A stretch of 64,000 bases of DNA from a virus, in IMG/VR virus record IMGVR_UViG_3300046791_000470, positions 23,517-87,516 of that record; one strand, 5' to 3'. The notes under the pieces are model-generated. The model had not been told where the DNA came from. It worked only from the letters and a program-made list of their open reading frames with translations, and did not search any database. Of the stretch, positions 2,643-61,537 are shown piece after piece (the first letter of the stretch is position 1; each line of letters starts with the position of its first letter). A program made the translations under genes and the position numbers.

Positions 2643-2678
2643 TCCGATAGCGATGGTGGCGCCGGCGCGCCGTGGGCG

Positions 2679-40424: not shown

Positions 40425-40460
40425 GCACAAGACTATACGCACGCTCGTGCACACTGTCAA
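40425..40460 (-). promoter_or_regulatory. Class A leaderless promoter, near consensus
   Basis: TTGACA, 17 bp (GTGTGCACGAGCGTGCG), TATAGT, 7 bp, ATG. It is the closest of the set to sigma-70 consensus. Confidence 0.8.
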
Positions 40461-41552: not shown

Positions 41553-41588
41553 GTGTCTATCTATACGCATGACCGTACGCATCGTCAA
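41553..41588 (-). promoter_or_regulatory. Class A leaderless promoter (minus strand)
   Basis: TTGACG, 17 bp, TATAGA, 7 bp, ATG. It stands back to back with the plus-strand promoter at 41658. Confidence 0.7.
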
Positions 41589-41657: not shown

Positions 41658-41693
41658 TTGACGGTGTGCATGGTCATGCGTATCATCTCTCTC
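41658..41693 (+). promoter_or_regulatory. Class A leaderless promoter (plus strand)
   Basis: TTGACG, 17 bp (GTGTGCATGGTCATGCG), TATCAT, 7 bp, ATG. Same design as the minus-strand copies, so the arrangement follows the gene start and not one strand. Confidence 0.75.
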
Positions 41694-45474: not shown

Positions 45475-45729
45475 CTACGGCTCGAGCGGCGGCAGCTTCG
45501 CCGGGTCGTATTCGAACCAGAGCATCCCCTGCGACGTGCCGAGGTAGCGGAGGAGCTTCGCGAAGCGCCGTCCGGCCAACAACGCCAGTGCCTCGCGCTG
45601 ATCGATGCCCCGCCCATCGACGGTGGTTGGCACCTTCACGGGGATGCAGCCCGGCGTGCGCTTGAACGCCCGGCACGGCGCCGTCAGGCGGTCGCGGCGC
45701 GTGCGCTCCTCGTCGATTGGTCTGGTCAC
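45475..45729 (-). CDS. Small hypothetical protein
   Basis: 84 aa from GTG overlapping the C5 methylase stop (GTGA). VTRPIDEERTRRDRLTAPCR, then REALALLAGRRFAKLLRYLG and MLWFEYDPAKLPPLEP. No family recognised. Co-translated with the methylase. Confidence 0.5.
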   Translation of the reverse strand: MTRPIDEERTRRDRLTAPCRAFKRTPGCIPVKVPTTVDGRGIDQREALALLAGRRFAKLLRYLGTSQGMLWFEYDPAKLPPLEP

Positions 45730-47690
45730 GCGGCCCTCGCGTACTCGATGGTCCGGATCGCGGCGCGGCCGACGGCGCGCATCAGGTGGGGCGGGACGCT
45801 GTTGCCCACGCACTTGATCTGCGCCGTCTTGGTGAGCGGCTTCCCGTTGAACTCGAGATCGATTCTCCAGCTCGGCGGGAACCCCTGGCAGAGGAACAGC
45901 TCGCGGGCCGTGAGCATGCGGAACCCGATGTCGACGAGCACCCACTGCTCGCCGTCGATCTCGAGCACGATCGGCGCGTCGTATCCGAGGAACGCGGCGA
46001 CCCGCATGGCGCGCTCGCTGACCTCCCGGTCGAGCGTGAGGGTGATCAGCGCGAAGCGGTCTTTCGTGTCGATCGTCGAGAGCGGCTTGCCCAGCGCCTC
46101 GGGGCCGCTCGTGCCGTTGTAGCGGATCAGGAACGCGGCCACCTCGGCGAAGTGCGTGCCCGACGCTGAGATCGTGGGGAGCGGCTCGTTGAGCGGATGC
46201 GACGACGCGGCTACGTGCGCATCGCTCGTGCCGCGCAGCTTCAGCAGGTGCAGCATCGCGAGCGAGTGGTGGTCGCGCTGCGTGATCGTCCCGATCGGCG
46301 CGTCGATGCGCGAGCCGCCGGCGAACCCGCCCTCGCGCTCGCTGTAGTTCTTCACGAGCACGGGCATCGCGAGCCCGTGCTTCTGGCCCTGCGCCACGAT
46401 GGTCCCGAGCGGCTGCTGTGCGTCGTACACGCGCGGGGACTGCGCCTTCGTGGTCTCGGTCGCGCCGCGCTCGCCGTTGGAGCGGTGGACCAGGTAGGGC
46501 GTGGCGATCGCGAAGTCGGTTCCGCCCGCCGTGATGGCGCCCAGCGGCAGCTCGACGCTGTGGGCGCCCTGGCCGCGCCGTTTCCCGCTGTGGTCGATGT
46601 CGCCGTGCGCCGTTCTCACCACGATCGGCGACACCACCGCGTGGCCGTCGCGGTTGCCGCAGATCGTGGAGAGCGGCTGGTCCACGCTCGCGCCGCGCCC
46701 GTCCTCGCGTCCCTTGTCACCGTACGAGGTCGGCACGACGAAAGGACGCGGCACGGTGAAGGGCCTGGGGACGTTGAACACGAACCGCTCGAGCCCGGCG
46801 CGGATGCGCGCGAGCGTCTTGTCCGCGAGCGGCTTGGCGCGCTCGAAGATCGACGGGCACTCGATCGAGAAGTCGATGCACTCGGCCGCCGTCCTCCACG
46901 GCTGCGCGCGCCCGGGGCCGTGCGTCGGCTCGGGCCACTCCGCTGGCGTGTCACTCGCGATCAGGAAGAACCGCTCTCGGCTCGTCGGAGACCCGTAGTT
47001 GCTGGCCTTCAGGACTCGATAGGAGACGTAGCGGTAATACTTGCCCAGGCGGGCGATGAACGCGTTGAACAGGGAGCCGATCCGCGCCTTGATCGGGCGC
47101 AGGTAGTTGCAGCCCCTTAGGCACTTCGGGCGGACCTGGCCGCGCTTGCCGACCGTGCCGCGCGCCGCGGCGAGCTCGGCGCTGCAGCCCTGCGAGTGGT
47201 GGCGGTGCAGCGGTCCCCACTTCATGAACGGCTTGACGTTCTCGAGGGACATCGCCCGCGGGCGCACGATGGACGCCGCCCACGACACCGCGAGCCACGC
47301 GAGCCCGCGGACCTTGGTAGCCTCCTCGCCGAGCGGGCCGCCCTTGGCCTGCGAGAAGAAGATGCACGTGGGCGAGAAGTGCGCGTAGGCGATGCGCTTC
47401 CCGCCGCTCGCCACGACCGGATCCACCTTGACGATGTCCTCGCAGAACACGCGGCACTCGGGGTGGTTCGCGGCGTACATCGCCAGCGCCTCGGGCCAGT
47501 GATTGACCGCGATGCCAGGCGCGCGGCGCTCGATGCCGAGATCCTGATACGCCTGCTTGATGCCGAGTCGGGCGCCGCCGCCGCCGGAGAAGTTGTCCGC
47601 GTCCGGTTCGTCGGGATCCACCCAGACGGTGAGCGGTGGACGCGCCTCCTCGCGCGCGCTGAACATGTTGAGCTGACCGCGGATCTTCAT
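45726..47690 (-). CDS. C5-cytosine DNA methyltransferase
   Basis: 654 aa; ATG overlaps the UDG-like gene stop (ATGA). Motif I is NFSGGGGARLGIKQA (residues 33-47), motif IV carries the catalytic cysteine as SPTC (Cys 109) in place of PPCQ, motif VI is ENV (150-152), motif VIII is in SRERFFLIA, motif X is GNSVPP near the C terminus. Residues about 325-555 hold six repeats of h-x2-P-L-x-T-I-x5-H/F-A, a repeated target-recognition region. Length is well above the usual 350-450 aa because of these repeats. Confidence 0.9.
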   Translation of the reverse strand: MKIRGQLNMFSAREEARPPLTVWVDPDEPDADNFSGGGGARLGIKQAYQDLGIERRAPGIAVNHWPEALAMYAANHPECRVFCEDIVKVDPVVASGGKRIAYAHFSPTCIFFSQAKGGPLGEEATKVRGLAWLAVSWAASIVRPRAMSLENVKPFMKWGPLHRHHSQGCSAELAAARGTVGKRGQVRPKCLRGCNYLRPIKARIGSLFNAFIARLGKYYRYVSYRVLKASNYGSPTSRERFFLIASDTPAEWPEPTHGPGRAQPWRTAAECIDFSIECPSIFERAKPLADKTLARIRAGLERFVFNVPRPFTVPRPFVVPTSYGDKGREDGRGASVDQPLSTICGNRDGHAVVSPIVVRTAHGDIDHSGKRRGQGAHSVELPLGAITAGGTDFAIATPYLVHRSNGERGATETTKAQSPRVYDAQQPLGTIVAQGQKHGLAMPVLVKNYSEREGGFAGGSRIDAPIGTITQRDHHSLAMLHLLKLRGTSDAHVAASSHPLNEPLPTISASGTHFAEVAAFLIRYNGTSGPEALGKPLSTIDTKDRFALITLTLDREVSERAMRVAAFLGYDAPIVLEIDGEQWVLVDIGFRMLTARELFLCQGFPPSWRIDLEFNGKPLTKTAQIKCVGNSVPPHLMRAVGRAAIRTIEYARAA

Positions 47691-48196
47691 GACGGCCACA
47701 GCTCCGGTGCGACTGCTCGCACGAGACCACGAGCAGCCTCGACGACGGCCGGCTTGTTGTACGTGGTGTTGCGCCGGCTCGGGTGACCGATGCGCACGAG
47801 CTCGATGCCGGCCCGGGTCACCGCCTTGCGCACGTCGGCGTGGCCGAACGCGCTGCTGACCTTCACGCCGAGCGCCACGACGATCCTCCACGGCGTGTCG
47901 TGGCCGGCGGTCAACGCCAGCGCACGGGCGCGGGCCGCCTTCGCGGACCATCCGCCCGTGCAGAGGTTCGCGCGCCAGATGCCGAGGTAGTCGGCCCGCG
48001 GGATGCCGAGCACGTGGCTCTGCAGCCGGTGGCCGGCGCAGCCCGTGGGAGCGCAGTAGAGCGCGAACTCGGGCTCCGACCCGTAGGGGTTGTCTTCGCC
48101 GAGGAGCAGCACGCGGCAGCTCTCGGGCGTGGCCGGGAAGCGCTGGCGCACCGCGCCAAGGTGGGTCTCGAGGCCGACCCGTGTTGATTCACCCAT
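47687..48196 (-). CDS. UDG-superfamily-like protein
   Basis: 169 aa; ATG at 48196 behind a class B promoter. VLLLGEDNPYGSEPEFALYC resembles the uracil-DNA-glycosylase motif A region and VRIGHPSRRNTTYNKPA the motif B H-P-S loop, with the alpha/beta order between. The catalytic Asp of classical UDG is Asp/Glu-Asp-Asn in this motif A, so activity is uncertain. It could remove or sense modified bases beside the C5 methylase. Confidence 0.6.
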   Translation of the reverse strand: MGESTRVGLETHLGAVRQRFPATPESCRVLLLGEDNPYGSEPEFALYCAPTGCAGHRLQSHVLGIPRADYLGIWRANLCTGGWSAKAARARALALTAGHDTPWRIVVALGVKVSSAFGHADVRKAVTRAGIELVRIGHPSRRNTTYNKPAVVEAARGLVRAVAPELWPS

Positions 48197-48231
48197 CAAC
48201 GATTTATCGGGGATTTCCGGATAATCGTCAA
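48197..48231 (-). promoter_or_regulatory. Class B leaderless promoter
   Basis: TTGACG, 17 bp, GATAAA, 6 bp, ATG. Directly behind the -35 box lies TTATCCGGAAA, and TTATC pairs with GATAA of the -10. Drives UDG-like, C5 methylase and following genes. Confidence 0.7.
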
Positions 48232-48238
48232 GCGCTCT

Positions 48239-48493
48239 CTACGTCCGCGGCGGCTCGAGCGTCCGCGCGATCATGTCGTGCACGGTGGTCTGCGACGCGC
48301 CGATCAGCCGCGCGGCGTTGGCCATCACGGTCGGCACGAGGCGCCCATAGCAGCCGTCGGCGAACACCAGCGTGATGGCCACGCCCTCGAGCTTGCGCTC
48401 CTTGGCCATCGCGAGCGCGCGCTCGAGCATGGTCACCGCCTCGGCGTGGAAGTCCTCGCGCTCCTGCTCCTCCTTCGTGACCACCTCGATCAC
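48239..48493 (-). CDS. Small helical protein
   Basis: 84 aa from GTG overlapping the upstream stop. VTMLERALAMAKERKLEGVA, then MANAARLIGASQTTVHDMIART looks like a helix-turn-helix. Possibly a small regulator. No family named. Confidence 0.5.
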   Translation of the reverse strand: MIEVVTKEEQEREDFHAEAVTMLERALAMAKERKLEGVAITLVFADGCYGRLVPTVMANAARLIGASQTTVHDMIARTLEPPRT

Positions 48494-48678
48494 AGCTCCT
48501 CCGTGCAGCCGAGCAGCTCGGGGTTGACGGTGTCCATGTCCCGGCCCTCGATCTCGTCCTCCTCGCTCCGGCGGGGGCGGTCGAAGCTCACCCGGCGGAT
48601 GGGGAGCCCGGCGCGCTTGCGGTGGCACCGGCGGATCAGGCGGAGTCGTCGTCGCTTGGCGTTGGAGGTGAGGGGCAC
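48490..48678 (-). CDS. Small basic protein
   Basis: 62 aa, GTG start at 48678. N-terminal basic cluster (KRRRLRLIRRCHRKRAG) and an acidic C terminus. A TAATAT box stands 6 bp before the start. It may bind nucleic acid by charge. Overlaps the next gene. Confidence 0.45.
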   Translation of the reverse strand: MPLTSNAKRRRLRLIRRCHRKRAGLPIRRVSFDRPRRSEEDEIEGRDMDTVNPELLGCTEEL

Positions 48679-48724
48679 GCGCCGATATTACGGGCGGTTG
48701 CGGTTGTGGCGTATGGTCGTGCGC
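48679..48724. promoter_or_regulatory. Back-to-back leaderless promoters (candidate)
   Basis: Minus strand: TAATAT, 6 bp, GTG at 48678, with no good -35. Plus strand: TTACGG, 18 bp, TATGGT, 7 bp, ATG at 48725. The two overlap within 46 bp, so only one may fire at a time. Confidence 0.4.
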
Positions 48725-49102
48725 ATGGAGAACGACATCACCAAGATCTACGCCGTGCTCGTGGAGTACGGCGCCGCCGAGCGCGACCAGCCGCCGACCC
48801 TCGAGGCCGTGCTCGATGGAGTCCGATGGCTCGGCCGTCATAGAGACGAAGCCAGCAAGGCAGCAGCCGCATGGGAGAACGCTCGCTCAGGGACGGCGGC
48901 GACCGTGCGGATCGATGGCCCCGACGACATGCGGACGAAGATGTCCGAGCTCGCCGCGGCGCGCCTGTTTCGCGCCGAGGTCGAGGCGCTGTGCTCGCCC
49001 GAGTCAGAGGCGATGCGCCGCCATGAGGTCGGTGACCGTGTGCGCCAGCTCGGTGAAACGGTCGTGCGGTTGGCACCGCCTATCGTCCCCTCGGCCTCGT
49101 AG
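48725..49102 (+). CDS. Acidic helical early protein
   Basis: 125 aa. Almost fully helical: MENDITKIYAVLVEYGAAER, HRDEASKAAAAWENAR, AARLFRAEVEALCSPESEAM. The only plus-strand gene between 45 and 64 kb. Function unknown. Confidence 0.5.
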   Translation: MENDITKIYAVLVEYGAAERDQPPTLEAVLDGVRWLGRHRDEASKAAAAWENARSGTAATVRIDGPDDMRTKMSELAAARLFRAEVEALCSPESEAMRRHEVGDRVRQLGETVVRLAPPIVPSAS

Positions 49103-49103
49103 C

Positions 49104-49289
49104 TCACGCTTCCCCGCCGAGGTCCGCGCCCTCGTGGATCTCGCGGTTCGCCCGCCGGCGCCGCACGGAGCGGAAGGCGCGCAGCGTGGCCATCGCCCGG
49201 TCGAAGGCGCCCGGCGTCAGGGTGCGGCGACGGAAGCACGCCGCCACCGCGTCCAGCGCCGCTCGCTCCATGTCCGAGTGGGGTCTCAC
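49104..49289 (-). CDS. Small basic protein
   Basis: 61 aa from GTG overlapping the upstream stop (GTGA). Helix with MERAALDAVAACFRRRTLTP and a basic run (RSVRRRRANREIH). No family recognised. Confidence 0.45.
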   Translation of the reverse strand: MRPHSDMERAALDAVAACFRRRTLTPGAFDRAMATLRAFRSVRRRRANREIHEGADLGGEA

Positions 49290-49664
49290 GCTGCCCGCGC
49301 CGGGTCGAGCGGCACCAGCACGATCGCGTCGCGGCGGTCGGCCAGCCCGGCGCGCGACGGGTGCGGGTCGTGAACGATCTCGCGCCCGCGGGCGATCACG
49401 CTGTGCAGGTGCTTCATCGGATCGCCGCCTCCGCGCGGGCTGAGACCGCTCAGGATGTGGAGCCCGGCCGGCGCCCACGCGGCGTCGACCTCCAGGCACA
49501 GCACCCACAGCCCGCGCGGTTCGAGCCAGTCGCGGAACCGGCTAAACCACTCGTCCTCCGGGGCGTGCATGAAGTACGGCACGGCGTCTAGATCCATCTC
49601 CAGCAACGAGGCGACGCACGCGCTGAAGCAGTTGCCGCCCGGGAAGCCGAACGATCGGCTTCAC
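49286..49664 (-). pseudogene. Conserved phage/bacterial protein, frameshifted after codon 4
   Basis: GTG at 49664 overlaps the upstream stop and gives V-K-P-I, then the frame runs wrong; the real body, FGFPGGNCFSACVASLLEMD, VPYFMHAPEDEWFSRF and HDPHPSRAGL, is one frame away and ends at 49286. This matches a common family (roughly MKPVxQTxFGxPxGNCFxAxVASLL) of unknown function. 379 nt is one base too many. Indel at about 49650. Confidence 0.6.
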
Positions 49665-50083
49665 GACGGCCTCACCCGCGACGTGGCGGCGTCCAGCCTG
49701 GAGAGCACCACCTCGTGGAGCAGCTCCGTGGCGATGGCCACCAGGCAGATCTCGTCGTCGCGATCGCTGATCGACCGCATGATCTGGTGGATCTCGCCTC
49801 GATGAACGATCTGCGCCTCGAGATCGAGCACGTGCTTCGTCGGGCAGCGCACCGTGAGCAGCGGCGCCAGCGGGAAGGCGGGCGACACCACGATCGACTC
49901 GATGATGTCGACGATGCGACCGTAGCCTTTCACGCGGGCGAGCCGGTGCTCGACCACCCGGAGGCACCTGGACACCGCGCGCGCCATCGCGTCGGGCTCG
50001 TCCTGGATGCTCGCCTGGCACACCGCCGGGTCGCCGTCGTGGCTCGCCCTGATCGGCCGGCCGCACCGCTTGCAGCCCCGCAT
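49661..50083 (-). CDS. Hypothetical protein with N-terminal zinc ribbon
   Basis: 140 aa. GCKRCGRPI and a later Cys make a C-x2-C...C site, followed by helices (RVVEHRLARVKGYGRIVDII) and strands (APLLTVRCPTKHVLDLEAQIV). Overlaps both neighbours. No family recognised. Confidence 0.5.
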   Translation of the reverse strand: MRGCKRCGRPIRASHDGDPAVCQASIQDEPDAMARAVSRCLRVVEHRLARVKGYGRIVDIIESIVVSPAFPLAPLLTVRCPTKHVLDLEAQIVHRGEIHQIMRSISDRDDEICLVAIATELLHEVVLSRLDAATSRVRPS

Positions 50084-52167
50084 CACCGGCTCCGTCCCAG
50101 CAGCACGTTCGCGATCATGGCCGCCGCCATCTCCTCCACCCTGGCGATCGAGTCGGTGTCGGCCTCGAGCGGCAGCGCGTCGCGCTCGTTCAGCTCCTCG
50201 GCATCCCACGGATCGCCGTCCTCTCCTTCGATCGCGTCGAGGATCGCTCCGAACAGGAAGTCCCGCGTGTCCCCGTCCAGCGTCCGCCCGGTGTAGCGGT
50301 TCAGCACCGCGTGGATCCGATCGTTGCGGTCCTGCACGTCAACCGGCGCGGCGAGCTCAGGCTCGATCGTCACCTCGTCGTCACCGCGGAGCCCGATCAC
50401 CGCGTCGATCAGCCGCTCGAGCACCTCCTTCGTGAGCCGCCACCCCTCGAACTGCCGCAGCCGGTGGCGGACCAGCCGAGCGTTCGACAGGTGCCGGCCC
50501 ACCTCCTCGAGCACGGGCGTCACCGCCGGCGCGTGCCCGGTCACCCGGTCCACGGCGGCTTTGAGTTCGCGAGCCTCTTCATCGGTGAGCGCGCTGTCCT
50601 CTCGTGCGTCGGAGATCGCGTCCTTGATGGCCTCGGCCTCGCCGGGCGAGAGGCCCCGAGGGTCGCACTCGGCCGCCGGCGGGGCGGAGCGATGCCCGAG
50701 GGCGGCGTCCACGTCCTGCTTGTACAGCCGCTCGATCAGCTCGTGCTCCACGTTCACCTCCTCGTGGGTGACCCGCGCCCGGAGCGCCTCGTGGACGATC
50801 CGCAGCACCTCGTGGAGGGTGGCCGGCGTGATGTCGAGCGGGTCGCGCTCGAGGACGGCGCGGCTGCTCTCGAGCCCGGTACGGATCCGGCGCATCACCG
50901 CGGCGTGGTGGGCCAGCTCGGCGATCGGCTCCTCGTCCAGCGCCTGGTCCGCCTGCGCCGCGAGCGTGACCACGGCCTCGCCTACACGTGAGGAGTCGAC
51001 GTTTTGGAGCATCTCGGCGGCCATCTCCGAGACTTGCTTACGTATGGAGTCGCGCTCGGCGATGACGCTCTCCACCCTCTGGGCGAGGAAGTTCGAGGCG
51101 ACGCCGGCGGCGTTGAGCACCTGGTGCGCGGCAGCGTACGCCGTGCCGCTCTGGTAGGAGGCGAGCTCGGCCATGCGCTTCCGGACCAGGGTGATCACGG
51201 ACTCCGGCGAGTTGTCGCCCTCCTCCGCGCGCAGGGCGTCCAGGACGTTGCTCCGGTCGCGCTCGTCCTTCTTGACGTGGAGCTCGAGCTGCTTGGTGAG
51301 CGACTGTACCTCCGCCACGACCAGGCGGGCGGCGTCCACCAGCGTGGTCCCCGGCCAAGCCTCGAGCACCTCGCGCAGCTCCACGGCCTCCTGCACGAGC
51401 GCTGGACGCCGGCGGATGTTCTCGAGCACGGCTGCCAGGTCGTCCTTCTCGCGGAGTTCGTCGGCGATGGCCTGGAGGTAGAGCGGCTGCTTGCGGAGCG
51501 CCACCACCTCGGTCTCGAGGCGGTCGATTGAGATGCCGTCCTGCTCGCGACCGTGCCGTACGATCGACGCACGCGCCGCGAGGGCCGCTGGCGTCGCGCG
51601 CTCGAGCGGCCCCCCGAAGCCGTCGGCCCACGCCGTGGCCCACTCGCGATCCCGCGCTGCAAGGGCGTCCGCGAGCGACGCATCGGCCGCCGGGGTCATG
51701 GGGTGCCGCTCCTGGCCTACGAAGTCTGGGGGCGAGGCTCGCAGCGCGGCGTTGGCCGCCTTCAGCGCCCCAACCTCGGCGGCGTACTGGTCGCGCAGCT
51801 CGCGCGCCTCGGCGAGCTGCGCCAGCACGGCGGCCGGGGACTGCGCTTGCCGGCCGGGGTAGCGCTCCTCGTGAGCCGGAACCCCCTGGAGGAACCGGAG
51901 CCAGCCGCGCCGGCTGTTCCAGATCTCGCCGGCCTCCGCGCGAGACACCGGCTTCTCGACGCGCAGGTCCCACGGCGACAGCCGGGCCACCGGGATCGTG
52001 AACTCGCCGCCACCGCAGGCGTGGCCGCTGCCGTCCTCGTCCGCGGCGATCGTCGTCCACAGCGGGACCAGTACCTGCGCCGGTTGCGGCGCCAGCGCGC
52101 CGAGGTCAGCGGTCGGGATGGCCAGTACACGAAGCAACGCGAACCATTGACCAGTCGTCGGGTTCAT
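50083..52167 (-). CDS. Long coiled-coil protein (694 aa)
   Basis: ATG at 52167 overlaps the 73-aa gene stop. N-terminal 170 residues contain beta/aromatic stretches (SPWDLRVEKPVSRAEAGEIW, RGWLRFLQGVPAHEERYPG); from there to the C terminus it is mostly charged helices and coiled coil (ETEVVALRKQPLYLQAIADE, RLVVAEVQSLTKQLELHVKK). The C terminus is acidic. It belongs to a class B operon. Similar in make-up to the 1481-aa protein at 56017, but clear homology could not be settled by eye. Confidence 0.6.
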   Translation of the reverse strand: MNPTTGQWFALLRVLAIPTADLGALAPQPAQVLVPLWTTIAADEDGSGHACGGGEFTIPVARLSPWDLRVEKPVSRAEAGEIWNSRRGWLRFLQGVPAHEERYPGRQAQSPAAVLAQLAEARELRDQYAAEVGALKAANAALRASPPDFVGQERHPMTPAADASLADALAARDREWATAWADGFGGPLERATPAALAARASIVRHGREQDGISIDRLETEVVALRKQPLYLQAIADELREKDDLAAVLENIRRRPALVQEAVELREVLEAWPGTTLVDAARLVVAEVQSLTKQLELHVKKDERDRSNVLDALRAEEGDNSPESVITLVRKRMAELASYQSGTAYAAAHQVLNAAGVASNFLAQRVESVIAERDSIRKQVSEMAAEMLQNVDSSRVGEAVVTLAAQADQALDEEPIAELAHHAAVMRRIRTGLESSRAVLERDPLDITPATLHEVLRIVHEALRARVTHEEVNVEHELIERLYKQDVDAALGHRSAPPAAECDPRGLSPGEAEAIKDAISDAREDSALTDEEARELKAAVDRVTGHAPAVTPVLEEVGRHLSNARLVRHRLRQFEGWRLTKEVLERLIDAVIGLRGDDEVTIEPELAAPVDVQDRNDRIHAVLNRYTGRTLDGDTRDFLFGAILDAIEGEDGDPWDAEELNERDALPLEADTDSIARVEEMAAAMIANVLLGRSR

Positions 52168-52388
52168 CAGTAACACTCCAGGTATTCGGTTAGATGGACG
52201 ATTTCGTCGCCGCGGCGGGCGGCGTTGAAGGCCGATTCCGTCGCGTGCTTGAGCTTGCTGACCGCCTCGCGCAGGGACTCGCGATCGATCAGGCCGGCGC
52301 GCACGGCGGCGCGCATCGCATCGATCTCGGCGCCCTCGACGGGGATCCCGATCTCCTTGCGCCACTCCTCGTAGGTGAGGGTGGACAT
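52167..52388 (-). CDS. Small helical protein
   Basis: 73 aa, ATG overlapping the upstream stop (TGATG) and its own stop overlapping the next start. MSTLTYEEWRKEIGIPVEG, AMRAAVRAGLIDRESLREAVSKL. No family recognised. Confidence 0.55.
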   Translation of the reverse strand: MSTLTYEEWRKEIGIPVEGAEIDAMRAAVRAGLIDRESLREAVSKLKHATESAFNAARRGDEIVHLTEYLECY

Positions 52389-52797
52389 CAGTTATCCCGT
52401 GGCTTGGTGAAGTCCATGCCGCCGGACGCGCGCGCGCCTCGGCGAGCTTCGAGAGCCCGTCCGCGGCCTCGTCGGCGGTCACGCCGGCGGCGCGGAGCGG
52501 GTTGGCGTCGCGCTCGCGGAGCGCCGCGGCGAGCTTGTCCAGCCCGCGGTTCCACTGCGCGCGCTCCTCGTCGGTCCGTGGACCCTTCAGCCGCTCGGAG
52601 ATCGCGGCGCGCAGCTTGGAGCGGACAGCGGCGTCGCTCTCATCGGGCGCGAACTCGACGCCCCAGCTCCGGGCCGTCGTGCGGAGGCGCTCGCCGGCGT
52701 GGAGCTCGTTGCGGCGGGCGCGGCGCTGGCGTCGCCACAGCACGAACAGGAGGACTAGGATCAGGAGGCCGGGGAACGTGACCGCGAAGAGGAGCAT
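52388..52797 (-). pseudogene. Membrane-anchored helical protein, frame broken near a GC repeat
   Basis: ATG 52797 starts MLLFAVTFPGLLILVLLFVL-W, a single N-terminal membrane anchor, then basic and helical sequence ending SKLAEA; after this the zero frame runs on without a stop into later genes, while the other frame ends ASGGMDFTKPRDN with TGA overlapping the next ATG. The break is in GCGCGCGCGCG near 52430, consistent with one extra GC unit. The gene has a class B leaderless promoter. Real reading is probably 135-137 aa. Confidence 0.6.
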
Positions 52798-52832
52798 CCA
52801 CTCTTATATGGACGTTACCCGGTAATGGTCAA
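52798..52832 (-). promoter_or_regulatory. Class B leaderless promoter
   Basis: TTGACC, 17 bp, ATATAA, 6 bp, ATG. TTACCGGGTAA is a perfect dyad directly after the -35 box. Confidence 0.7.
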
Positions 52833-52853
52833 GCTTCTTACAGCGCCCGGAGA

Positions 52854-53705
52854 TCAGTTCGCGATCGCCACGGCGGCCGAGGCGACGTGCGCCCCGATCG
52901 CGACGTTCACATACCACGTGGTCGGCCCAACCCCGCTCTCCGTGAGGGCCACGGTGAAGTCGCCGGCCTCGCCGGAGACCAGGTCGAAAACCTTGTTGGC
53001 CGTGATGGTTGCGATGGTAACGCCGTCACCGATCCCGGTTCCGCCGTTCGGTGCAGTGGCCGTAGGGGCGCCCGCTGCCACGTCGCTCACCCACACCCGG
53101 ACGTGCGCCTTCGCGGCGAGGTCCCCGCCGGCGATGTTCTTGAGCTGGACCGTCGAGGTGCGCGTGGTGCCGATCTGCGCGTCGACGGAGATGGTCGGGG
53201 TCCCTGGGATCGCGGCCACGACGGTGGCGGCGAGCTTCGCGGCGGTCACGTTCGCGTCCAGGATCTTGGCGGTGGTCACCGCATCCGCGGCCAGCTTCGC
53301 ATCCGTCACTGCGAGGGCGGCGAGCTTTCCGGTCGTGACGTTGAGATCGAGGATCTTCGCGGTGATCACCGCGTTGGCCGCAAGCTGGGCGTCCGTCACC
53401 GAGAGCAGCGCCAGCTTTGCGGTGGTGACGGCCAGCGCCGCGAGCTTGCCCGTGGTGACCGCCAAGTCTTCGATGTCCGCGGTGGCGACGCCGCCGGTCG
53501 GCCCCTCGGTGCCGCTGAACACCGGCTCCCACTCCGTGGGCTCGGTGCCGTGCTTGATCATCGGGTAGGCGCGCTCGGTGTCGGCGTCGACCCAGATCAG
53601 GAACGATCCAGGCAAGCCGGGGCGCCCTGCTCCCTCCACCCGTGGATCGTTGTAGGTGACGACAAAGTCGCGGAGGAGAGCGTCGGTCTGCCGGATGTGC
53701 GCCAT
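52854..53705 (-). CDS. Tail fibre protein with decapeptide repeats
   Basis: 283 aa. The N-terminal 65 residues (DFVVTYNDPRVEGAGRPGLP, WVDADTERAYPMIKHG) match the N terminus of the fibre at 54072. Residues 81-160 are eight decapeptide repeats of the type LAVTTGKLAA, which form trimeric shafts. The C terminus is a beta domain (PTISVDAQIGTTRTSTVQLK). It lies outside the late operon, next to early coiled-coil genes. A fibre or side fibre is likely; the partner is unknown. Confidence 0.65.
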   Translation of the reverse strand: MAHIRQTDALLRDFVVTYNDPRVEGAGRPGLPGSFLIWVDADTERAYPMIKHGTEPTEWEPVFSGTEGPTGGVATADIEDLAVTTGKLAALAVTTAKLALLSVTDAQLAANAVITAKILDLNVTTGKLAALAVTDAKLAADAVTTAKILDANVTAAKLAATVVAAIPGTPTISVDAQIGTTRTSTVQLKNIAGGDLAAKAHVRVWVSDVAAGAPTATAPNGGTGIGDGVTIATITANKVFDLVSGEAGDFTVALTESGVGPTTWYVNVAIGAHVASAAVAIAN

Positions 53706-53757
53706 GCAGTGAGGCTCGCACGACGCCGAGCGGTGCCGCTACCCAGGCGTCGACGAG

Positions 53758-54060
53758 TCAGGTCACGTTGCGAGCAGACCCGTACAGGTACTTGGCGTCA
53801 TAGACCGCCGGGATGTTCCAGCCGTCGGGGTCGGCCAGCGCGGCCACGGCGGCGGCCAGGACCGCAGCGTCCACCTGCTCCGACGTTTTGTAGGCCCCCT
53901 GATCGCGGACCTGGATCGTGACCGTGAAGCCGTCGATCACCGGCGCACCGTCGGATCGGTAGACCGCCGCCTCGATCCGGATCTTGATCGCGCCATCTTC
54001 CGCGCTGGAGATGCCGCAGAGACACACGTGCAATTCCCGATATGTAGTGATGAACGCCAT
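53758..54060 (-). CDS. Small tail-accessory protein (putative)
   Basis: 100 aa. IKIRIEAAVYRSDGAPVIDG, then QVRDQGAYKTSEQVDAAVLA and a C-terminal edge. Composition is like small beta proteins that cap fibres. It sits between two fibre genes. Confidence 0.45.
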   Translation of the reverse strand: MAFITTYRELHVCLCGISSAEDGAIKIRIEAAVYRSDGAPVIDGFTVTIQVRDQGAYKTSEQVDAAVLAAAVAALADPDGWNIPAVYDAKYLYGSARNVT

Positions 54061-54071
54061 GGGAGCCGATG

Positions 54072-54926
54072 CTACAGGGTCCACGCCATTCCGAAGGAGC
54101 CCCGCCGCACGGTGATCGTCGCCGACGATCCGGTCTCGATCCTCGCCTGCAGGGTCATCCGGCCGTTGGCGTTGGGGACGATGATGCCCTCGATCGCGAA
54201 CACGTAGTCCAGCCCAGCCGTGTCCACGCTGGACGCCACTGCCGGCCCCTGGCTTGTAGTGATCGGCGTGGCAAACATGACCGTCGGCCCGGCGACGATC
54301 TGGCCGATCATCGTCGCCGAGGCGCCGAACACCGAGTAGGTCGGAGTGACCACGGTGAGCCCCGGGCCGATGTTGGCGTTCGTCGATCGGACGAGCGTAA
54401 CGAAACGGAAGTAGTAGCTGCGGTCGGCGAGGAGATCGAACCCGACGGTTGGCGACCCGGACACCCCCACAGCAACGTCGGCGTAGCTCGTCGACATGAA
54501 CGGTGAGTCTGCCGTCTTCGCGACCACCTGCAGGCCGAGCACGCCTCGCGCCTGCGTCGAGGTCAGCGCGGTCACCGGCCCGGTGGCGTCGGTCGCGTTG
54601 CCGAGCAACCTCGGCCCCGCGATCGGCAGGAGCTGGGTGATGGGCAGGAACCCACCGACGAAGCCGCCTGGCTCCGGCGGCTCTGCCCATCGCAGGTCCG
54701 CCCTGAGGAACTCATCCTCGTTTCCCGTCGGCGGCGGAATGAACGCCACCCAGTCGTTCGGGCCGTCGCCCTGCTTGGCCATCAGCACCGCGGCGCCGTC
54801 GCCGTTGACGTAGACGAGCATCGCTCCGCGCTGCGCTGCGCGTCCCTGCGTCGGGATGCGCGGATCGTTGTACGTCGTGACCATGACCGGCGTGGGAGCG
54901 TCCGACTGCGGGAAGATTGACGGCAT
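54072..54926 (-). CDS. Tail fibre protein, N-terminal paralogue of 52854-53705
   Basis: 284 aa. The first 65 residues (VTTYNDPRIPTQGRAAQRGA, LVYVNGDGAAVLMAKQGDGP) align with the other fibre; then a Pro-rich hinge and a beta-rich C terminus with long strands (STSYADVAVGVSGSPTVGFD, MTLQARIETGSSATITVRR). Lacks the decapeptide shaft. Exchange of C-terminal domains on a common base is typical of fibres. Confidence 0.6.
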   Translation of the reverse strand: MPSIFPQSDAPTPVMVTTYNDPRIPTQGRAAQRGAMLVYVNGDGAAVLMAKQGDGPNDWVAFIPPPTGNEDEFLRADLRWAEPPEPGGFVGGFLPITQLLPIAGPRLLGNATDATGPVTALTSTQARGVLGLQVVAKTADSPFMSTSYADVAVGVSGSPTVGFDLLADRSYYFRFVTLVRSTNANIGPGLTVVTPTYSVFGASATMIGQIVAGPTVMFATPITTSQGPAVASSVDTAGLDYVFAIEGIIVPNANGRMTLQARIETGSSATITVRRGSFGMAWTL

Positions 54927-54958
54927 TGTCCGATGATGGCGGACGCCGCCGCGCAACG

Positions 54959-55324
54959 TCAGGGCGTCGGCATGGCCACGAGCCGCCCGACGAGCTCGGC
55001 CAGCCGGGCCGCGCCATCCACGGAGATCTCGCCGGCCTCGGCCGCCGAGGCGATGGCTCGCTGCAGGTGCTCCACAGCGCTCCGCGCCCGCTGCCGTGCC
55101 TCGCTCCACTGCGCCTCCAGCTCCACCAGGGCGGCGAGCTCGAGCACGTGGTGGCCGGTCCCGGAGCCAGATCGAGCGTTCTCGCCGATCCGCTTCTCGA
55201 GCCAGGCGCACCGCTCGGCGATCAGCCGGCGCATCCGGGCGCGCTCGGGCACCGGGTAGCCGCGGAGCGACTCGCACGGGTGATCCTCGGGGAACGTGGG
55301 GCGCTCGCCCTGGCTACCGCTCAT
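54959..55324 (-). CDS. Helical protein
   Basis: 121 aa from ATG 55324, 11 bp into the upstream gene's end. Charged helices (MRRLIAERCAWLEKRIGENA, LVELEAQWSEARQRARSAVE). No family recognised. Confidence 0.5.
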   Translation of the reverse strand: MSGSQGERPTFPEDHPCESLRGYPVPERARMRRLIAERCAWLEKRIGENARSGSGTGHHVLELAALVELEAQWSEARQRARSAVEHLQRAIASAAEAGEISVDGAARLAELVGRLVAMPTP

Positions 55325-55580
55325 CGCGAACTCTCCGGATGGCGCGCTGCCGGGCGAGCCTGGACTCGATGCGGTTCGCGGCGAAGAAGTCCGGCGAGAC
55401 CGAGCGGCTACCATCGGGTCGCACCGGGCACCGCGTCTGCCACGACTTGCGCAGCCGGAGCTCAGCGCGCCGGAGCTGCTCCTCGGTGTAGACCGTCCAC
55501 CACACGCGCTTGTCGCGATCGGCGCGCGCCCATTGCTTCCACGAGCCGAGGTCCATCTTGCGTGCGATGCGGAGCTTCAC
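55314..55580 (-). CDS. Small basic protein
   Basis: 88 aa from GTG overlapping the upstream stop. Trp/Arg-rich helix (SWKQWARADRDKRVWWTVYT), then a basic run ending RQRAIRRVRDER. May bind nucleic acid by composition. Confidence 0.5.
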   Translation of the reverse strand: MKLRIARKMDLGSWKQWARADRDKRVWWTVYTEEQLRRAELRLRKSWQTRCPVRPDGSRSVSPDFFAANRIESRLARQRAIRRVRDER

Positions 55581-56017
55581 CGGCGCAGCTCCTGGCCGCG
55601 CTCGCTCCACCGCTCGCGCGCGCATCGGTCGCACGATGCTACGTCGCACCGCCGCGCGTAGCCGCCGAACAGGGAGCGCTCGTGGTCCGTGACCGGGATG
55701 CGGACGAACCGGGCGTTGAACCAGCGTACCTCGCCGTCGTCAGTGTCGACGATCCAGTAGCGCTCCGTCGCCCCGTCGGCGGCCGGCTTGCCATCCTCGC
55801 CGACGATCGGCTCGTCCTCCACCCGGAGCAGAACCCCGATCGCCTTCGCCCACTGCTCGTTCGCCAGCGTCCCCGTCGATAGCTCGACCACGGTGTCGCC
55901 CGGTCGAATCTCCTCCATCCACAGCGAACTGTGGAGCTGGCGCGGGGTGCCGTTGCCGAGCAGCGCCGAGTAGAGCGTCCGGCCGAGCTGCAGCTCGAGC
56001 TCCGTGAAGCGCGACAT
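55577..56017 (-). CDS. Hypothetical protein with Cys-rich end
   Basis: 146 aa, ATG overlapping the stop of the 1481-aa gene. A beta/helix body (GDTVVELSTGTLANEQWAKA, YWIVDTDDGEVRWFNARFVR) ends with CDVASCDRCARERW, a zinc-site-like cluster. No family recognised. Confidence 0.5.
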   Translation of the reverse strand: MSRFTELELQLGRTLYSALLGNGTPRQLHSSLWMEEIRPGDTVVELSTGTLANEQWAKAIGVLLRVEDEPIVGEDGKPAADGATERYWIVDTDDGEVRWFNARFVRIPVTDHERSLFGGYARRCDVASCDRCARERWSERGQELRR

Positions 56018-59000
56018 CACCCACCCTCGCTCGGCCTGCTCGCGATCTCCGCCCACCTGCATTCAGCATTTGCGCATTCGACGCCGCCACCGGCGCGCGG
56101 CCTGGTCTCGTGGCCACACGACGGGCAGTGTTCCGGTCGCGCGCGCGCCACGATCGGCCCGGCGGGCACCTCCACGACACCGCTTCCGACCTCGATTCGG
56201 ATCTCGGTTGGACGAGTCGCCGTAGGCGGCAACGTCACGGTGTGGTGGACCGTCTGCTCGAACCGACGCCGGTTCGCTAGCCCCGGATCGAGCACCTCGG
56301 GATGCAGCCCGCTCGGCGCCTCGTGGTCGATGACCACCGACTCGGCCGGTGACACCACCACCGCCTGCTCGATGTCCGTGTTCGAGTACACCGCACCGCC
56401 GTTCCACGTGGACGCGCGGACGATGGCGCCGAGAACGTACGGCGGCGGATCGATGTCGCTGGAAAGCTTCCCGCGAGAGCGGGCGAACTCGGCGCGAAGG
56501 ATCATCAGCGCCTGCTCGTACGTCATCGGCGTCTTGTTGCGCTGTCCCCGGTCCACCACGCCCTGCAGGAGCTGCTCGTCCGTGAAGGTGCCAACCACCC
56601 ACCCGAGCGAGAACACCAGGCCGGAGCGCAGTCGCACGAGCGCCGTCCGATGAACGTCGGCGGTTCCCAGCGCGCCGTCGAGCTGGCCGAGCAGCCACGC
56701 CACCAACTCCGCGCGCGTCGGCGGCAGCAGCGACAGGTGCGGGCTGTTGGCCGCGCGCCACCGCTTCACACCGTCGTCGTGGGCCGCCTTGATGCGCACC
56801 CGATCCTCGCGGAGTCGGCGCGCCTCCTCGGCTGCGGCGCGGACGCGATCCTCGAGCTTCACGCCCTCGAAGCCGTGGACCAGGCCCGCGAGCATCCGCG
56901 CCTCGGCCGCGACGCTCTGGGCGTGCGCGATGATGTACTCGAACGGCGCGCTCGGGGACATCCCGAGCACCTCGCGGAGCCGCGCGCAGAACGCCCCGGC
57001 CTTGTTGCGCTCCGCCTCCAGCGCCTCGAGCTGCGGCCGGAGCTTGCCCACCTCGCCCTGCCACTCGGCGGATGACCGCATGTGCCTGTCGCGCTCCACC
57101 CTGTAGCCGCCGAGGTCGGCCACGCCGGCGAGCACCTGCTGGACCAGCGTGCCCCCGGCGGGCATCACCGCGCCGTGATGGACGAGCCTGTCGCGGACCG
57201 TCTGCAGCTCGTTGATGTACTCCGCCGTAGGCCGCCCGATGAGATCGGAACGCGCCGGCGGCCGGCGCAGCCTCAGAACCCACCGGCCATCCAGCCGCCG
57301 CAGCCACTCGCCGGCGTGGACGCTCTTGCCGTCCGTCGTCTCGGTCTCGACGAAGCGCGGAGCCTCGGGACCGGGCGGGCCGTCGAACACGATGTCCACG
57401 TTGACGGTGGAGGTCTCGAGCCGCTCGACGATCGAGCGCAGGTCGGTGAGCTTGGAGAGCGCGGCTGCCATCGCTCCGGAGTTCTTGATCCCGTGCGGGA
57501 ACGCGGCGCCAACCCATCCCTGATACGCCTCGCTGAGCACGTCGCGAGACTTCACGAGGGCGCGCACGCACTCGAGGACGCTGCCTCCCTCCACCGTGGA
57601 GCATGCCTTGCTGATCGCGTCGATCTCCGACCGCGCAGCTTCCAGCGCCGTCCGCTGGTCGATCGTCGCGGCTGCGGCGCGCTCGGCCATCTCGCCGAGT
57701 GCGCGCACGTCATCGCCCTTGGCGAGTTCGGCAGCGGCCACCGCGCGCACCCCGTCCACGATCGCGGTGTCGGAGACATCGCCGCGGCGCTGCCAGCCGA
57801 GCGCGGTCATCACCTCGCGGCGCCACCAGCCGACGCTGACGAACCGGGCCGATCGGACACCGACCTCGCGCACGATTGTCGCGTCCATCTCCTCACCCTC
57901 CATCCCGACATTCTCCTTACCGAGGCTGCTGAACCCCATCACGTTGAGGATGTCTCCGCGCAGCTTCGCCAGCATGGGCAGTGCCTTGGCACCGCACGCC
58001 ACGAGCGCCAGCAGGCCGGCGTTCGTCGGCACCGCCATCGGCTCCACGCCCAGCGCCTGCAGCAGCTCCCTGCGCCACCAGTCCTCACGCGCCGTCCCCG
58101 GCAGCGTCCGCGCCGCGCGCTCGGCCAGCGTGTCGATGCCGCCGAGCACGGCCTCGAGCATCGGCCCCTCGGCCATCGGCACACCGTGCTGCACCAGCCG
58201 GGCGTCGATGGTGCGGAGGCTCGCCTCCAGCGCCGCAGACGCCGTCTCTGCGTCCTTCGCGCGCTCGATCGCTGCCTCGGCCTTGGCGCGCTCGGCGGTG
58301 ACCTGGTTGGTCGCCTTGGCGTACGCCTCGTTGGCCAGCCCCAGCTCCGAGACCAGGCTGGCCACATGCGACTTAGCCGCGCGCAGCTCGGCCGCGTGGC
58401 ACCTCGCGGCGAGCTCGTCGAGGCTATCCGCGATCGCCACCCACGTGCGCGCCGCTACGGGGACGCCGGACGCGACGAGCTTCGTCGTCATGCGGTCGGC
58501 CGCCGCCTCGCGCTTCGCGATCCCGGTCGACATCGCCTCGCCGTCCTCCTCGGCCTGATCGAGAGAGTGCCGCGTCATCTCGAGGTCGTGCGCCAGCTTC
58601 TTGGCACCAGCCTCCGTGGTCGAGAGCTTGCCCTCCGCATAGGCCAGGTCCGCGCGCGCCCGTCCGATCTCCTCGGTGTGCGCCGCCTCGGCCGCCGCGA
58701 GCTTCGCCTCCATCTCCTCGATCCGAGTCTGGAAGGACCGCCGGTTCGATTCGATCACCTCGAGCGCCCGGTCCAGCTCCTTGCGAACGTGGAGCTCGGC
58801 GCCGGCGCGCGCCTGATCGCGCATCTCCTTCACAGCCCGCAGCAATTCGGCCACGCCCTCGACGAGATCCGGGTCCTTGTGCTCCACGAGCCGAGACCAC
58901 CCGAGCGCGTCGATGAGGTAGTGGCGGAGCAGGGTGTGCTTTCGCTCCACGTCCACCCCGCGGGCGCCCGCGGCGAGCAGCTCCTTGATGGTCGCGAGGA

Positions 59001-60462
59001 TCCGGATCTCCGACTGCTCATCGGCAGACAGCCCAGCGGACAGGGCCACGCGCGACCGGAGGGCGCGGTAGCCGCTCTGCGCCACGAGCAGGTCGCGTGC
59101 ATCCCGACGCGCGATCACGATGGCGCCGATGATCGCCTCGTCCGATCGCCCGCTGCCGTCGGGCTCGCCCTGATCGTTCGTGATCCCGACGGCCCGCGCG
59201 ACGCTGGCGCGGAAGGCGGCGTGCGCGGCGCCGGCGCGCAGGTCCGCCACCACCGGCCGGCCGCGCAGCTCGGCCACCTCCGCGAGCAGCCGCTCCTCGC
59301 GGTCCTGCTTGGCCTCGAGAGCGGCGATCCGCTCGTGCGCGGCGTTGAGCTTGTGGTCCAGGTCCGCGGCGCGAGCGCGGGCGCGTGTTGTGAGCCGCTC
59401 CTGCATCTCGAACCGCGCGCGGACCGCGGCCCATTCGCGATCCTTGTCCGGCGGCAGCCCAAGCAGCTCCGAGGCGTCGGCCACCAGCTCGGAGATCGCG
59501 ACCTTCCGGCCGGCCGCGTAGCCCGTGTCCCACTGACGGGTGAGGGGATCGATCGCTTCATCCTGGTTCGCGGCGGCGGCGTCGATCGCGTGCCCCTCCG
59601 CCACCATCTGCACCATGCGGTGCCGCGGCGAGCTCCACGAGAAGCCCTGCGCCGCGGCGAGCTCGTTGAGCGGCGTGGACTTCACGTCGACGATGGGTGC
59701 GTCGGTCACGAGCTTGCTGCCCATCGCCGCGGCGGTCATCTCGGGCGAGAGCGTCAACGGCGCGGCGGACGGCGGCTTGCCCGTCACGCCGGCCGACTTC
59801 ATCACGGCGGTCACGTAGCTAACCGCGGCGTCGCGAGCCTCGGGGTCGAGAGCGACGGGCGCGGCGTTCATCGCGGCCACGCGGCGATCGTGATCCTCGC
59901 GCACCGAGGTGGCGTCGTTTGCGTCGATCAGGTTCTCTGCCTCGCGTCGGCGCAACCACGCGAGCGCTTGGCGAGCGCACGCGCGCCGCGAGTGATCGGG
60001 GTCCCCACCCTGGATCGACGAGCCGGCGGTGGGGTGCGCGTCGGAGCCGGACGAGGGCCACACAGACCAGCCGTAGATCACCTCGCCATCGGCCTTCGTT
60101 TCCTCACTCCATTGGAGGCCGAGGTCGAGCCGGTCGGCCACGACCTGCGCCCCGGCCCGCAGACGCTCGGCCATCGTGGCGTCGTTGCGCGATGACCGCG
60201 ACTCCGCCAACCACGCCGGCGGGTCGCCCAGGACCAAGACGCGGTCCGCCGGTCGGCCGAACTCGGCCTCCTGCGCGGCGGTCAACCCGGGCCCCTGGCC
60301 GTCAACCACGCGCGCGCCGGTGCCGATCAGCTCGGTACTCAGCGAGCCGTCTGACCCCTCGAGCAGCGCCCAGAAGGCGGCACCGCCCTCGGCGATCAGG
60401 CCCACCTCGCGCACCAGGTACCGAACGCCTCGTAGATCGATCGTCTTTCCTCGTAGTGACAT
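56017..60462 (-). CDS. Giant coiled-coil protein with C-terminal zinc ribbon (1481 aa)
   Basis: ATG 60462 has GGAGGG in front, unlike the leaderless genes. N-terminal 90 residues are a beta-type domain (TIDLRGVRYLVREVGLIAEG). The rest is almost continuous charged helix and coiled coil, with a recurring module in which W-R-x2 or R-x3 is followed by h-x-A-L-G-W and then about 15 residues to D-x2-h-h-x-G-V: near residues 416, 512, 792, 876 and 1277. The C terminus has CPSCG...CANAEC (about 1446-1468). It is the longest gene in the window, nearly three times the tape measure. Role unknown; a structural or DNA-organising protein is possible. Confidence 0.65.
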   Translation of the reverse strand: MSLRGKTIDLRGVRYLVREVGLIAEGGAAFWALLEGSDGSLSTELIGTGARVVDGQGPGLTAAQEAEFGRPADRVLVLGDPPAWLAESRSSRNDATMAERLRAGAQVVADRLDLGLQWSEETKADGEVIYGWSVWPSSGSDAHPTAGSSIQGGDPDHSRRACARQALAWLRRREAENLIDANDATSVREDHDRRVAAMNAAPVALDPEARDAAVSYVTAVMKSAGVTGKPPSAAPLTLSPEMTAAAMGSKLVTDAPIVDVKSTPLNELAAAQGFSWSSPRHRMVQMVAEGHAIDAAAANQDEAIDPLTRQWDTGYAAGRKVAISELVADASELLGLPPDKDREWAAVRARFEMQERLTTRARARAADLDHKLNAAHERIAALEAKQDREERLLAEVAELRGRPVVADLRAGAAHAAFRASVARAVGITNDQGEPDGSGRSDEAIIGAIVIARRDARDLLVAQSGYRALRSRVALSAGLSADEQSEIRILATIKELLAAGARGVDVERKHTLLRHYLIDALGWSRLVEHKDPDLVEGVAELLRAVKEMRDQARAGAELHVRKELDRALEVIESNRRSFQTRIEEMEAKLAAAEAAHTEEIGRARADLAYAEGKLSTTEAGAKKLAHDLEMTRHSLDQAEEDGEAMSTGIAKREAAADRMTTKLVASGVPVAARTWVAIADSLDELAARCHAAELRAAKSHVASLVSELGLANEAYAKATNQVTAERAKAEAAIERAKDAETASAALEASLRTIDARLVQHGVPMAEGPMLEAVLGGIDTLAERAARTLPGTAREDWWRRELLQALGVEPMAVPTNAGLLALVACGAKALPMLAKLRGDILNVMGFSSLGKENVGMEGEEMDATIVREVGVRSARFVSVGWWRREVMTALGWQRRGDVSDTAIVDGVRAVAAAELAKGDDVRALGEMAERAAAATIDQRTALEAARSEIDAISKACSTVEGGSVLECVRALVKSRDVLSEAYQGWVGAAFPHGIKNSGAMAAALSKLTDLRSIVERLETSTVNVDIVFDGPPGPEAPRFVETETTDGKSVHAGEWLRRLDGRWVLRLRRPPARSDLIGRPTAEYINELQTVRDRLVHHGAVMPAGGTLVQQVLAGVADLGGYRVERDRHMRSSAEWQGEVGKLRPQLEALEAERNKAGAFCARLREVLGMSPSAPFEYIIAHAQSVAAEARMLAGLVHGFEGVKLEDRVRAAAEEARRLREDRVRIKAAHDDGVKRWRAANSPHLSLLPPTRAELVAWLLGQLDGALGTADVHRTALVRLRSGLVFSLGWVVGTFTDEQLLQGVVDRGQRNKTPMTYEQALMILRAEFARSRGKLSSDIDPPPYVLGAIVRASTWNGGAVYSNTDIEQAVVVSPAESVVIDHEAPSGLHPEVLDPGLANRRRFEQTVHHTVTLPPTATRPTEIRIEVGSGVVEVPAGPIVARARPEHCPSCGHETRPRAGGGVECANAECRWAEIASRPSEGG

Positions 60463-60507
60463 GAACCCTCCGCGCTCCATTTATCGGGATTGCCCGCAAA
60501 CTGTCAA
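60463..60507 (-). promoter_or_regulatory. Class B promoter of the giant gene
   Basis: TTGACA, 16 bp, GATAAA, then 17 bp including GGAGGG to the ATG. TTGCGGGCAA is the dyad behind the -35. Unlike the others it leaves room for a short leader with a ribosome site. Confidence 0.7.
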
Positions 60508-60888: not shown

Positions 60889-61205
60889 CGCTTCGCGTCC
60901 ACGCCGTGCTCGAAGGTGTCGAGCTCGAGCCCAAGCCTCCGCGCCGCGGCACGCAGCGGATCGCGGTGGTGATGGCTGTCCGAGGTACGCCACAGCACCC
61001 GCAGCCGCTCGCGGATCACGTCGTCGCTCTCCTCGATCAGCTCGGCGGTGACGCGGTAGCGACGGACGCTGACCACCCCGTTCCAGACCCGGGGGCCGGA
61101 GCCGTCGAGACCGTTGAGCACGTGCGTCAGGTTGTCGGAGAACGTCTCGACCACGCGCGGGAACGCGGGCGGCGCCGGCGGCGCGGGTTTCTTCTTCGGT
61201 GGCAT
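60885..61205 (-). CDS. Hypothetical protein
   Basis: 106 aa, ATG overlapping the LuxR-type gene stop. Pro/Lys-rich N terminus, then HVLNGLDGSGPRVWNGVVSV and RRYRVTAELIEESDDVIRER with a His-rich run (SDSHHHRDPL). Co-transcribed with the regulator. No family recognised. Confidence 0.5.
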   Translation of the reverse strand: MPPKKKPAPPAPPAFPRVVETFSDNLTHVLNGLDGSGPRVWNGVVSVRRYRVTAELIEESDDVIRERLRVLWRTSDSHHHRDPLRAAARRLGLELDTFEHGVDAKR

Positions 61206-61537
61206 CACGCCGCCGATCGCTCGTACGTGACGATCGCCAGCGACACCAGCTCGTTGCGGATCGCCCACCTCGCCAGCGCGATCGTGCTGCGGAGCCCGAG
61301 CTTGCGGAGGAGGCGCATCCGGTGGCAGTCCACCGTCTTGGTGCTCGACCCACGCGCGGCGGCGATCTCCCTGCAGGTCGCACCGAGCGCCAGCAGCCCG
61401 GCCACCTCGGTCTCCGTAGGCGTGAGACCGGGCCACGGGACGGTGGTGGTTTCGGCCTCGGGCGATCGATCGGGCGTGACCAATTCATTTGGCCCAAGCC
61501 GACCATTTGGAACATGTGGTGATGACTCGTGGTTCAT
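61205..61537 (-). CDS. LuxR/GerE-type HTH regulator
   Basis: 110 aa; ATG 61537 has AAGGA 7 bp upstream. The C-terminal 65 residues are a clear GerE domain: LTPTETEVAGLLALGATCRE, IAAARGSSTKTVDCHRMRLL, RKLGLRSTIALARW. The N-terminal part is short and has no receiver or ligand domain, so DNA binding is probably constitutive or controlled by level. A 34-bp repeat overlaps its start and lies upstream. Best candidate master regulator of the right-end operons; inferred. Confidence 0.8.
   Translation of the reverse strand: MNHESSPHVPNGRLGPNELVTPDRSPEAETTTVPWPGLTPTETEVAGLLALGATCREIAAARGSSTKTVDCHRMRLLRKLGLRSTIALARWAIRNELVSLAIVTYERSAA

Follow-up and report, generated by a model that had tools for sequence, protein, structure and literature searches.

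Does one phage place two different operators in a single promoter design? The question is raised by three promoters at 48.2, 52.8 and 60.5 kb of a 64,000-nucleotide stretch (the window), which covers bases 23517–87516 of the 87,516-base viral record IMGVR_UViG_3300046791_000470; coordinates below are those of the window unless given as record positions. An earlier note had set these promoters apart, as class B, from the class A promoters of the same phage. The GC content is 70.8%. Both ends of the record consist of one 24-bp tandem repeat (window 63788–64000; record 1–309), and the frame of GTATAGD repeats that belongs to a DUF7666 gene starting at record 2406 enters this repeat from either side. 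Because the ends share the repeat and one frame runs in from both sides, the phage map is very probably circular. A first search of the phage collection for near relatives returned none; its nearest relative, IMGVR_UViG_3300046740_000431, spans 92 kb and has a terminase and a methyltransferase that are 66% and 74% identical, respectively. An equally near relative is the fragment IMGVR_UViG_3300006931_000261 (23 kb; terminase 68%). The phage helicase has relatives (50–64%) in one Myxococcales MAG and three Corallococcus genomes, so that the host of this soil phage probably belongs to Myxococcota (myxobacteria). To our knowledge, little work has been done on gene control in phages of myxobacteria; the open literature that we searched contained none, and it yielded nothing usable on the conserved inverted repeats of phiC31 or on myxophage promoters.

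All three class B promoters were found where the earlier note had placed them, on the minus strand (Table 1). Each carries near-consensus sigma-70-type boxes, with TTGAC separated by 16–18 bp from GATAAA or TATAAG. The spacing of 16–17 bp claimed previously holds at 48.2 and 60.5 kb, and the promoter at 52.8 kb reaches it only if ATATAA is taken as the –10 box. The first T of TTGAC stands 35 nt from the ATG codons at 48196 and 52797, and since the –10 box lies 5–6 nt before these codons, transcription is expected to start on the ATG or right beside it, giving leaderless mRNAs. We defined a leaderless sigma-70-type promoter by a TTGACA-like –35 box, a spacer of 16–18 bp, a TATAAT-like –10 box and a start codon 5–7 nt beyond it. 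This arrangement was found at 48231, at 52832 and at a further site described below (record 2441); the promoter at 60507 has a short leader instead, and its gene starts behind GGAGGG rather than at 60480, which falls in the –10 box. Across the record, TTGAC is located exactly 35 or 36 nt ahead of an ATG codon 10 times, compared with 1.3 expected.

Table 1. Promoters and genes of the window considered in this analysis (window coordinates)
Feature	Position	Strand	Particulars	Basis
Class B promoter 1	48197..48231	–	TTGACG-attatccggaaatcccc-GATAAA-tcgttg-ATG (48231 to 48196); spacer 17 bp; leaderless, ATG at 48196	Sequence read, pattern and PWM scans
Class B promoter 2	52798..52832	–	TTGACC-attaccgggtaacgtcca-TATAAG-agtgg-ATG (52832 to 52797); spacer 18 bp; leaderless, ATG at 52797	
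Class B promoter 3	60480..60507	–	TTGACA-gtttgcgggcaatccc-GATAAA (from 60507); spacer 16 bp; short leader with GGAGGG	Sequence read, pattern and PWM scans
Class A promoter	41553..41588	–	Leaderless; left-facing of divergent pair	
Class A promoter	41658..41693	+	Leaderless; right-facing of divergent pair	
Class A promoter	40425..40460	–	Leaderless	
Class A promoter	37768..37805	–	ATG 38 nt from TTGAC	
Class A promoter	30980..31014	–	Leaderless	
Class A promoter	29010..29044	–	Leaderless; most divergent in record	
First gene of promoter 1	47687..48196	–	169 aa	PHROG phrog_12275 (function unassigned there)
C5 cytosine DNA methyltransferase	45726..47690	–	74% identical in relative	Pfam PF00145, E 3e-18; PHROG 116
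Gene of promoter 2	50083..52797	–	904 aa, begins MLLFAVTFPGLLILVLLFVLW; hydrophobic N-terminus, membrane protein by inspection	
Gene of promoter 3	56017..60462	–	1481 aa; start corrected from 60480	
GerE/NarL-type HTH-only protein	61205..61537	–	110 aa; candidate regulator	Pfam GerE, E 7.3e-11, 42 bits (cutoff 23.5)
GerE-fold protein	41325..41552	–	75 aa; candidate class A regulator; first gene off leftward class A promoter	
Paralog of the 75-aa protein	25232..25708	–	158 aa	BLASTP E 8e-12, 35% over 71 aa; phmmer 2.4e-7

The operon behind promoter 1 had been described as encoding a UDG and a C5-methylase. The methyltransferase is borne out by its Pfam family and overlaps the 169-aa gene by 4 bp within the same operon. 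The UDG label for the 169-aa product found no match in Pfam, NCBIfam or PDB, and its fold model was poor (pLDDT 43). The ortholog of this 169-aa gene in the nearest relative adjoins the relative's GerE gene. Profile searches returned no family match for the 904-aa gene of promoter 2. Separately, one of the 28 proteins scanned between window positions 36333 and 50083 is Tad2-like (Thoeris anti-defence 2, Pfam PF11195, E 3.4e-25); by eye, 45140–45442 looks likely to be this protein.

We then compared the spacers. The class B promoters have in common the element TTnnCSGGnAA, which takes the form TTATCCGGAAA at 48224–48214, a perfect 11-bp dyad (TTACC-G-GGTAA) at 52825–52815 and TTTGCGGGCAA at 60500–60490; its centre is located near –23/–24 where the start is leaderless. 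The pattern TTGAC.{1,2}TT..CSGG.AA occurred three times in the 87.5-kb record and in none of 300 first-order Markov shuffles. Mean spacer identities were 10.3 for these three sites and 10.5 when the record 2441 site was added, compared with 5.9–6.0 for shuffled spacers; none of 20,000 shuffles reached the observed identity. Identities between class A and class B spacers averaged 6.2, i.e. the chance level. Because similarity within class B lies well above that of shuffles and similarity between the classes is at chance, classes A and B are distinct sequence families.

The symmetry of the element is less uniform than the dyad that had been proposed. The palindrome is perfect at 52.8 kb (arm matches 5/5), but only three of the five arm positions match at the three other clear sites of the record and at the site in the nearest relative, and the overall two-fold symmetry was marginal, with P values of 0.07 for three sites and 0.05 for four. 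At three sites the likeness runs beyond the dyad through AATCCC(C)G and into the –10 box: ATCCCCG stands ahead of the –10 box at both 48.2 kb and record 2441, and ATCCCG at 60.5 kb, with no counterpart at 52.8 kb. Since the similarity continues in this way, the binding unit may be larger than the dyad or asymmetric. We also considered the tail AATCCCCG as a motif and rejected it; it recurs at record 15696 with no –35 box, and its frequency is about that expected by chance.

The class extends beyond the window. A fourth, leaderless class B site at record 2441 (TTGACTtaatcggacaatccccgCATAAGggttggATG) drives the DUF7666/repeat gene and lies 3΄ of a winged-helix gene (record 2442–3065), directly after its stop codon. 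The strict class B pattern matched one site in the nearest relative, at 49227 (TTGACATTCACGGGTAAGCGACGATAAAAGGACCCATG), and this site is located at the 3΄ end of the ortholog of the same winged-helix gene. A probable fifth site of the record, at record 16129 (TTGTCCctttgcgggtgatccCATACCgtgcgggcATG), precedes the ATG codon of a conserved small gene by 35 nt. We trained a PWM on the four sites of the record and that of the relative. The four class B promoters ranked highest in the record (27.9, 26.8, 26.0 and 24.1; the shuffle maximum averages 14.8), as expected for sites used in building the matrix. The site at record 16129 was not used in training and scored 19.6, a value matched by 3 of 150 shuffles; other scores, away from known sites, were near the shuffle level. 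Class B in this record thus comprises four clear sites and one probable site. On the circular map the four clear sites occupy one arc and the six class A sites another, a separation with a chance of about 0.05 by simple counting (10/210 arrangements), and the class B arc is still uninterrupted by class A when the fifth site is counted.

Class A promoters have the same geometry as class B, with 35–38 nt from TTGAC to ATG. Class A is just as local as class B: apart from two isolated, unrelated hits, a relaxed class A pattern matched the 23-kb relative alone. The 92-kb relative has two TTGAC frames (11875 and 34251) that are faintly class A-like, and it combines the class B site and an ortholog of the GerE gene at 61205–61537 with the lack of both strict class A sites and a detectable 75-aa protein. 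The class A promoter at 31014 drives a 96-aa protein (30689–30979) that gives a weak ribbon-helix-helix signal and is conserved in both relatives.

We further searched other genomes for the class B element. The full promoter pattern had no match in 284 Myxococcota genomes, and, once the –10 box was left out, the pattern was still absent from the four host-phylum genomes in which helicase relatives occur. More distant terminase relatives contained no comparable promoter sets, and the stricter first class B pattern matched no viral contig. We rejected a wide distribution of class B among viruses, because the promoter pattern matched 86 viral contigs and its reversed-core control (GSCC) at least 120. 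Across the genomes searched, the class B element appears confined to this phage group. The spacer statistics, the fourth site, the site in the relative and the lack of matches in host-phylum genomes confirm the earlier claim of a second spacer family in the same promoter frame.

What this family does is a matter of weighing several readings. We lean towards the one in which class B is a second phage promoter family for the host sigma-70-type polymerase, and the spacer element is the operator of a dimeric phage repressor. Once bound to the spacer element, a phage-encoded dimeric DNA-binding protein would mask the polymerase site, so that the gene is repressed. We infer operator function, a phage origin of the regulator, and repression rather than activation, the last because the boxes appear strong in themselves, before any activator is invoked. 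In class A promoters, the operator inside this frame would be a different one, with its centre about 3 bp nearer the start; with different operators, the two sets could be switched independently.

It is unlikely, but deserves some weight, that there is no operator at all, and that class B simply represents the strongest sigma-70 promoters of the phage, whose spacers reflect promoter preference or the duplication of one promoter. The weak symmetry and the likeness that runs into the –10 box at three sites are consistent with this explanation, and the regulators are candidates only. However, the sites share GC-rich bases (CSGG, CCC) for which no polymerase need is known, and class A promoters of the same phage manage without them. 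Moreover, the flanks upstream of TTGAC display no visible similarity, and the pattern is missing from the 284 Myxococcota genomes.

We regard as improbable the converse possibility that the element is a positive site, at which a phage activator bound between the –35 and –10 boxes aids the host polymerase in the manner of Lpa or MerR. Its centre does lie between the boxes, near –23/–24, the –10 boxes (GATAAA, CATAAG) are imperfect, and P1 provides a precedent, in which the activator Lpa binds a 9-bp inverted repeat present in each of 11 late promoters (PMC10695390). Nevertheless, all four clear class B sites combine TTGAC with a normal spacing of 16–18 bp, so that no activator should be needed, and no MerR-like protein was present among the proteins scanned. 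Promoters of these two types also look different: Lpa-type late promoters of P1 have no standard –35 box, whereas TTGAC is kept at all four clear sites, and MerR-type promoters hold their dyad in a spacer of 19–20 bp, compared with 16–18 bp for class B. Because the –35 box, the –10 box and their spacing are already good, an activator is less likely than a repressor.

Finally, it is very unlikely that the regulator is a host protein whose regulon site the phage has borrowed: the phage boxes are of host type, and host regulators such as LexA are often exploited by phages, but the full pattern had no match in the 284 Myxococcota genomes (a count that a looser host site would escape) and the shorter pattern is absent from the four genomes bearing helicase relatives.

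If the spacer element is the operator of a phage repressor, the phage offers several proteins that could read it: a Cro-like protein, a pair of winged-helix proteins (record 2442–3065 and 7270–7854) and three or more proteins with a GerE fold. The earlier proposal of two operators read by two phage-encoded regulators, which might also define timing classes, stands as to the two spacer families, and two regulators are plausible given this set of candidates. The 110-aa protein at 61205–61537, which the earlier note had picked out as LuxR-type, is a true GerE-domain protein; in PDB it matches domains of EsrB, EL222, DosR and NarL, and the nearest relative encodes an ortholog of 83 aa. The 75-aa protein had no Pfam match, and its AlphaFold2 model (pLDDT 87) resembled the C-terminal domains of DosR, LiaR and NarL in Foldseek (probability 1.00, TM 0.69–0.77), although the best E value was 0.16. 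Its 158-aa paralog sits inside the cluster of virion-protein genes and has an N-terminus (MGDWDESKHPRAENGKFGEG) that we take to resemble phage head proteins; it may be a DNA-binding protein that the virion carries.

The small gene behind the fifth class B site (record 15705–16094) looks XRE/Cro-like by inspection. In NCBIfam it weakly matched the first part of the NsdA profile (E 3.8e-4), and nothing useful came from Pfam and PDB profiles; it lies just before a region that, also by inspection, reads like a replication gene of the lambda O type. No gene was called in this region (record 14.7–15.7 kb); it resembles an O-type initiator gene that contains internal repeats (CCATTTGGAAGTCG and AACCAATT), and may be the phage replication origin. 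Elsewhere, record 10739–11242 encodes a protein with sigma-70 region 4 only and a cysteine-containing N-terminus, which could alter the host polymerase and is a further candidate regulator.

From these observations, the likeliest candidates for the class B regulator would be the small Cro-like protein and the GerE protein at 61205–61537. The latter is weakly favoured because it co-occurs with class B in the relative, and the former because a class B site stands before its own gene. The relative that bears class B retains both genes; in front of its Cro-like gene, the leaderless-type frame is present and the class B element is missing. A broader and rather doubtful extension is that the phage has one leaderless cassette with exchangeable operators and tiny GerE-only readers, i.e. 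the 75-aa protein for class A, the 110-aa protein for class B and the 158-aa protein as a third; the control class of a gene would then depend on which insert of about 15 bp its spacer carries.

We compared this arrangement with known systems. Phage P1 has C1 operators at scattered sigma-70 promoters together with Lpa-dependent late promoters (PMC10695390, PMC8201110). Both phages thus place two cis elements at many dispersed promoters for the host polymerase, those of P1 serving two phage regulators, and the late set of P1 has promoters with a common inverted repeat. Here, in contrast, both elements lie inside an intact TTGAC/–10 frame, most promoters are leaderless and the regulators are candidates.

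The operators of lambda CI and Cro overlap strong sigma-70 promoters, as the class B elements do, and a Cro-like gene before an O-like region (record 15.7–16.1 kb) is a further resemblance. Lambda operators, however, are clustered at two promoters with three sites each, whereas class B consists of single sites scattered over tens of kilobases. The site of mycobacteriophage L5 ends in TGTCAAG, the complement of CTTGACA, and so overlaps the –35 box. Stoperators of cluster A mycobacteriophages (L5, TipsytheTRex) are 13-bp asymmetric sites that follow the direction of transcription, more than 20 per genome, with many copies in intergenic DNA and away from promoters (PMC9283540, PMC6550527). They share with class B the character of dispersed phage-specific sites, some in promoters, and serve one small phage DNA-binding protein; unlike them, the clear class B sites (all four of the record) are found only at promoters, number 4–5 per genome and have their conserved part downstream of the –35 box. 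As to the proteins, 61205–61537 and, by predicted fold, 41325–41552 have the GerE-type domain of the GerE/NarL HTH family, but they differ from that family in being domain-only candidates without receiver or ligand domains.

Class B is thus real, phage-specific and somewhat larger than the window alone shows, and its likeliest function is that of a second operator family, of a kind already known in general terms. Should each of the two classes have its own regulator, this phage would offer a compact and readable control code, in which a single promoter frame is combined with two operators and several very small genes for regulators. If true, it would also provide leaderless regulated promoter parts for high-GC hosts.
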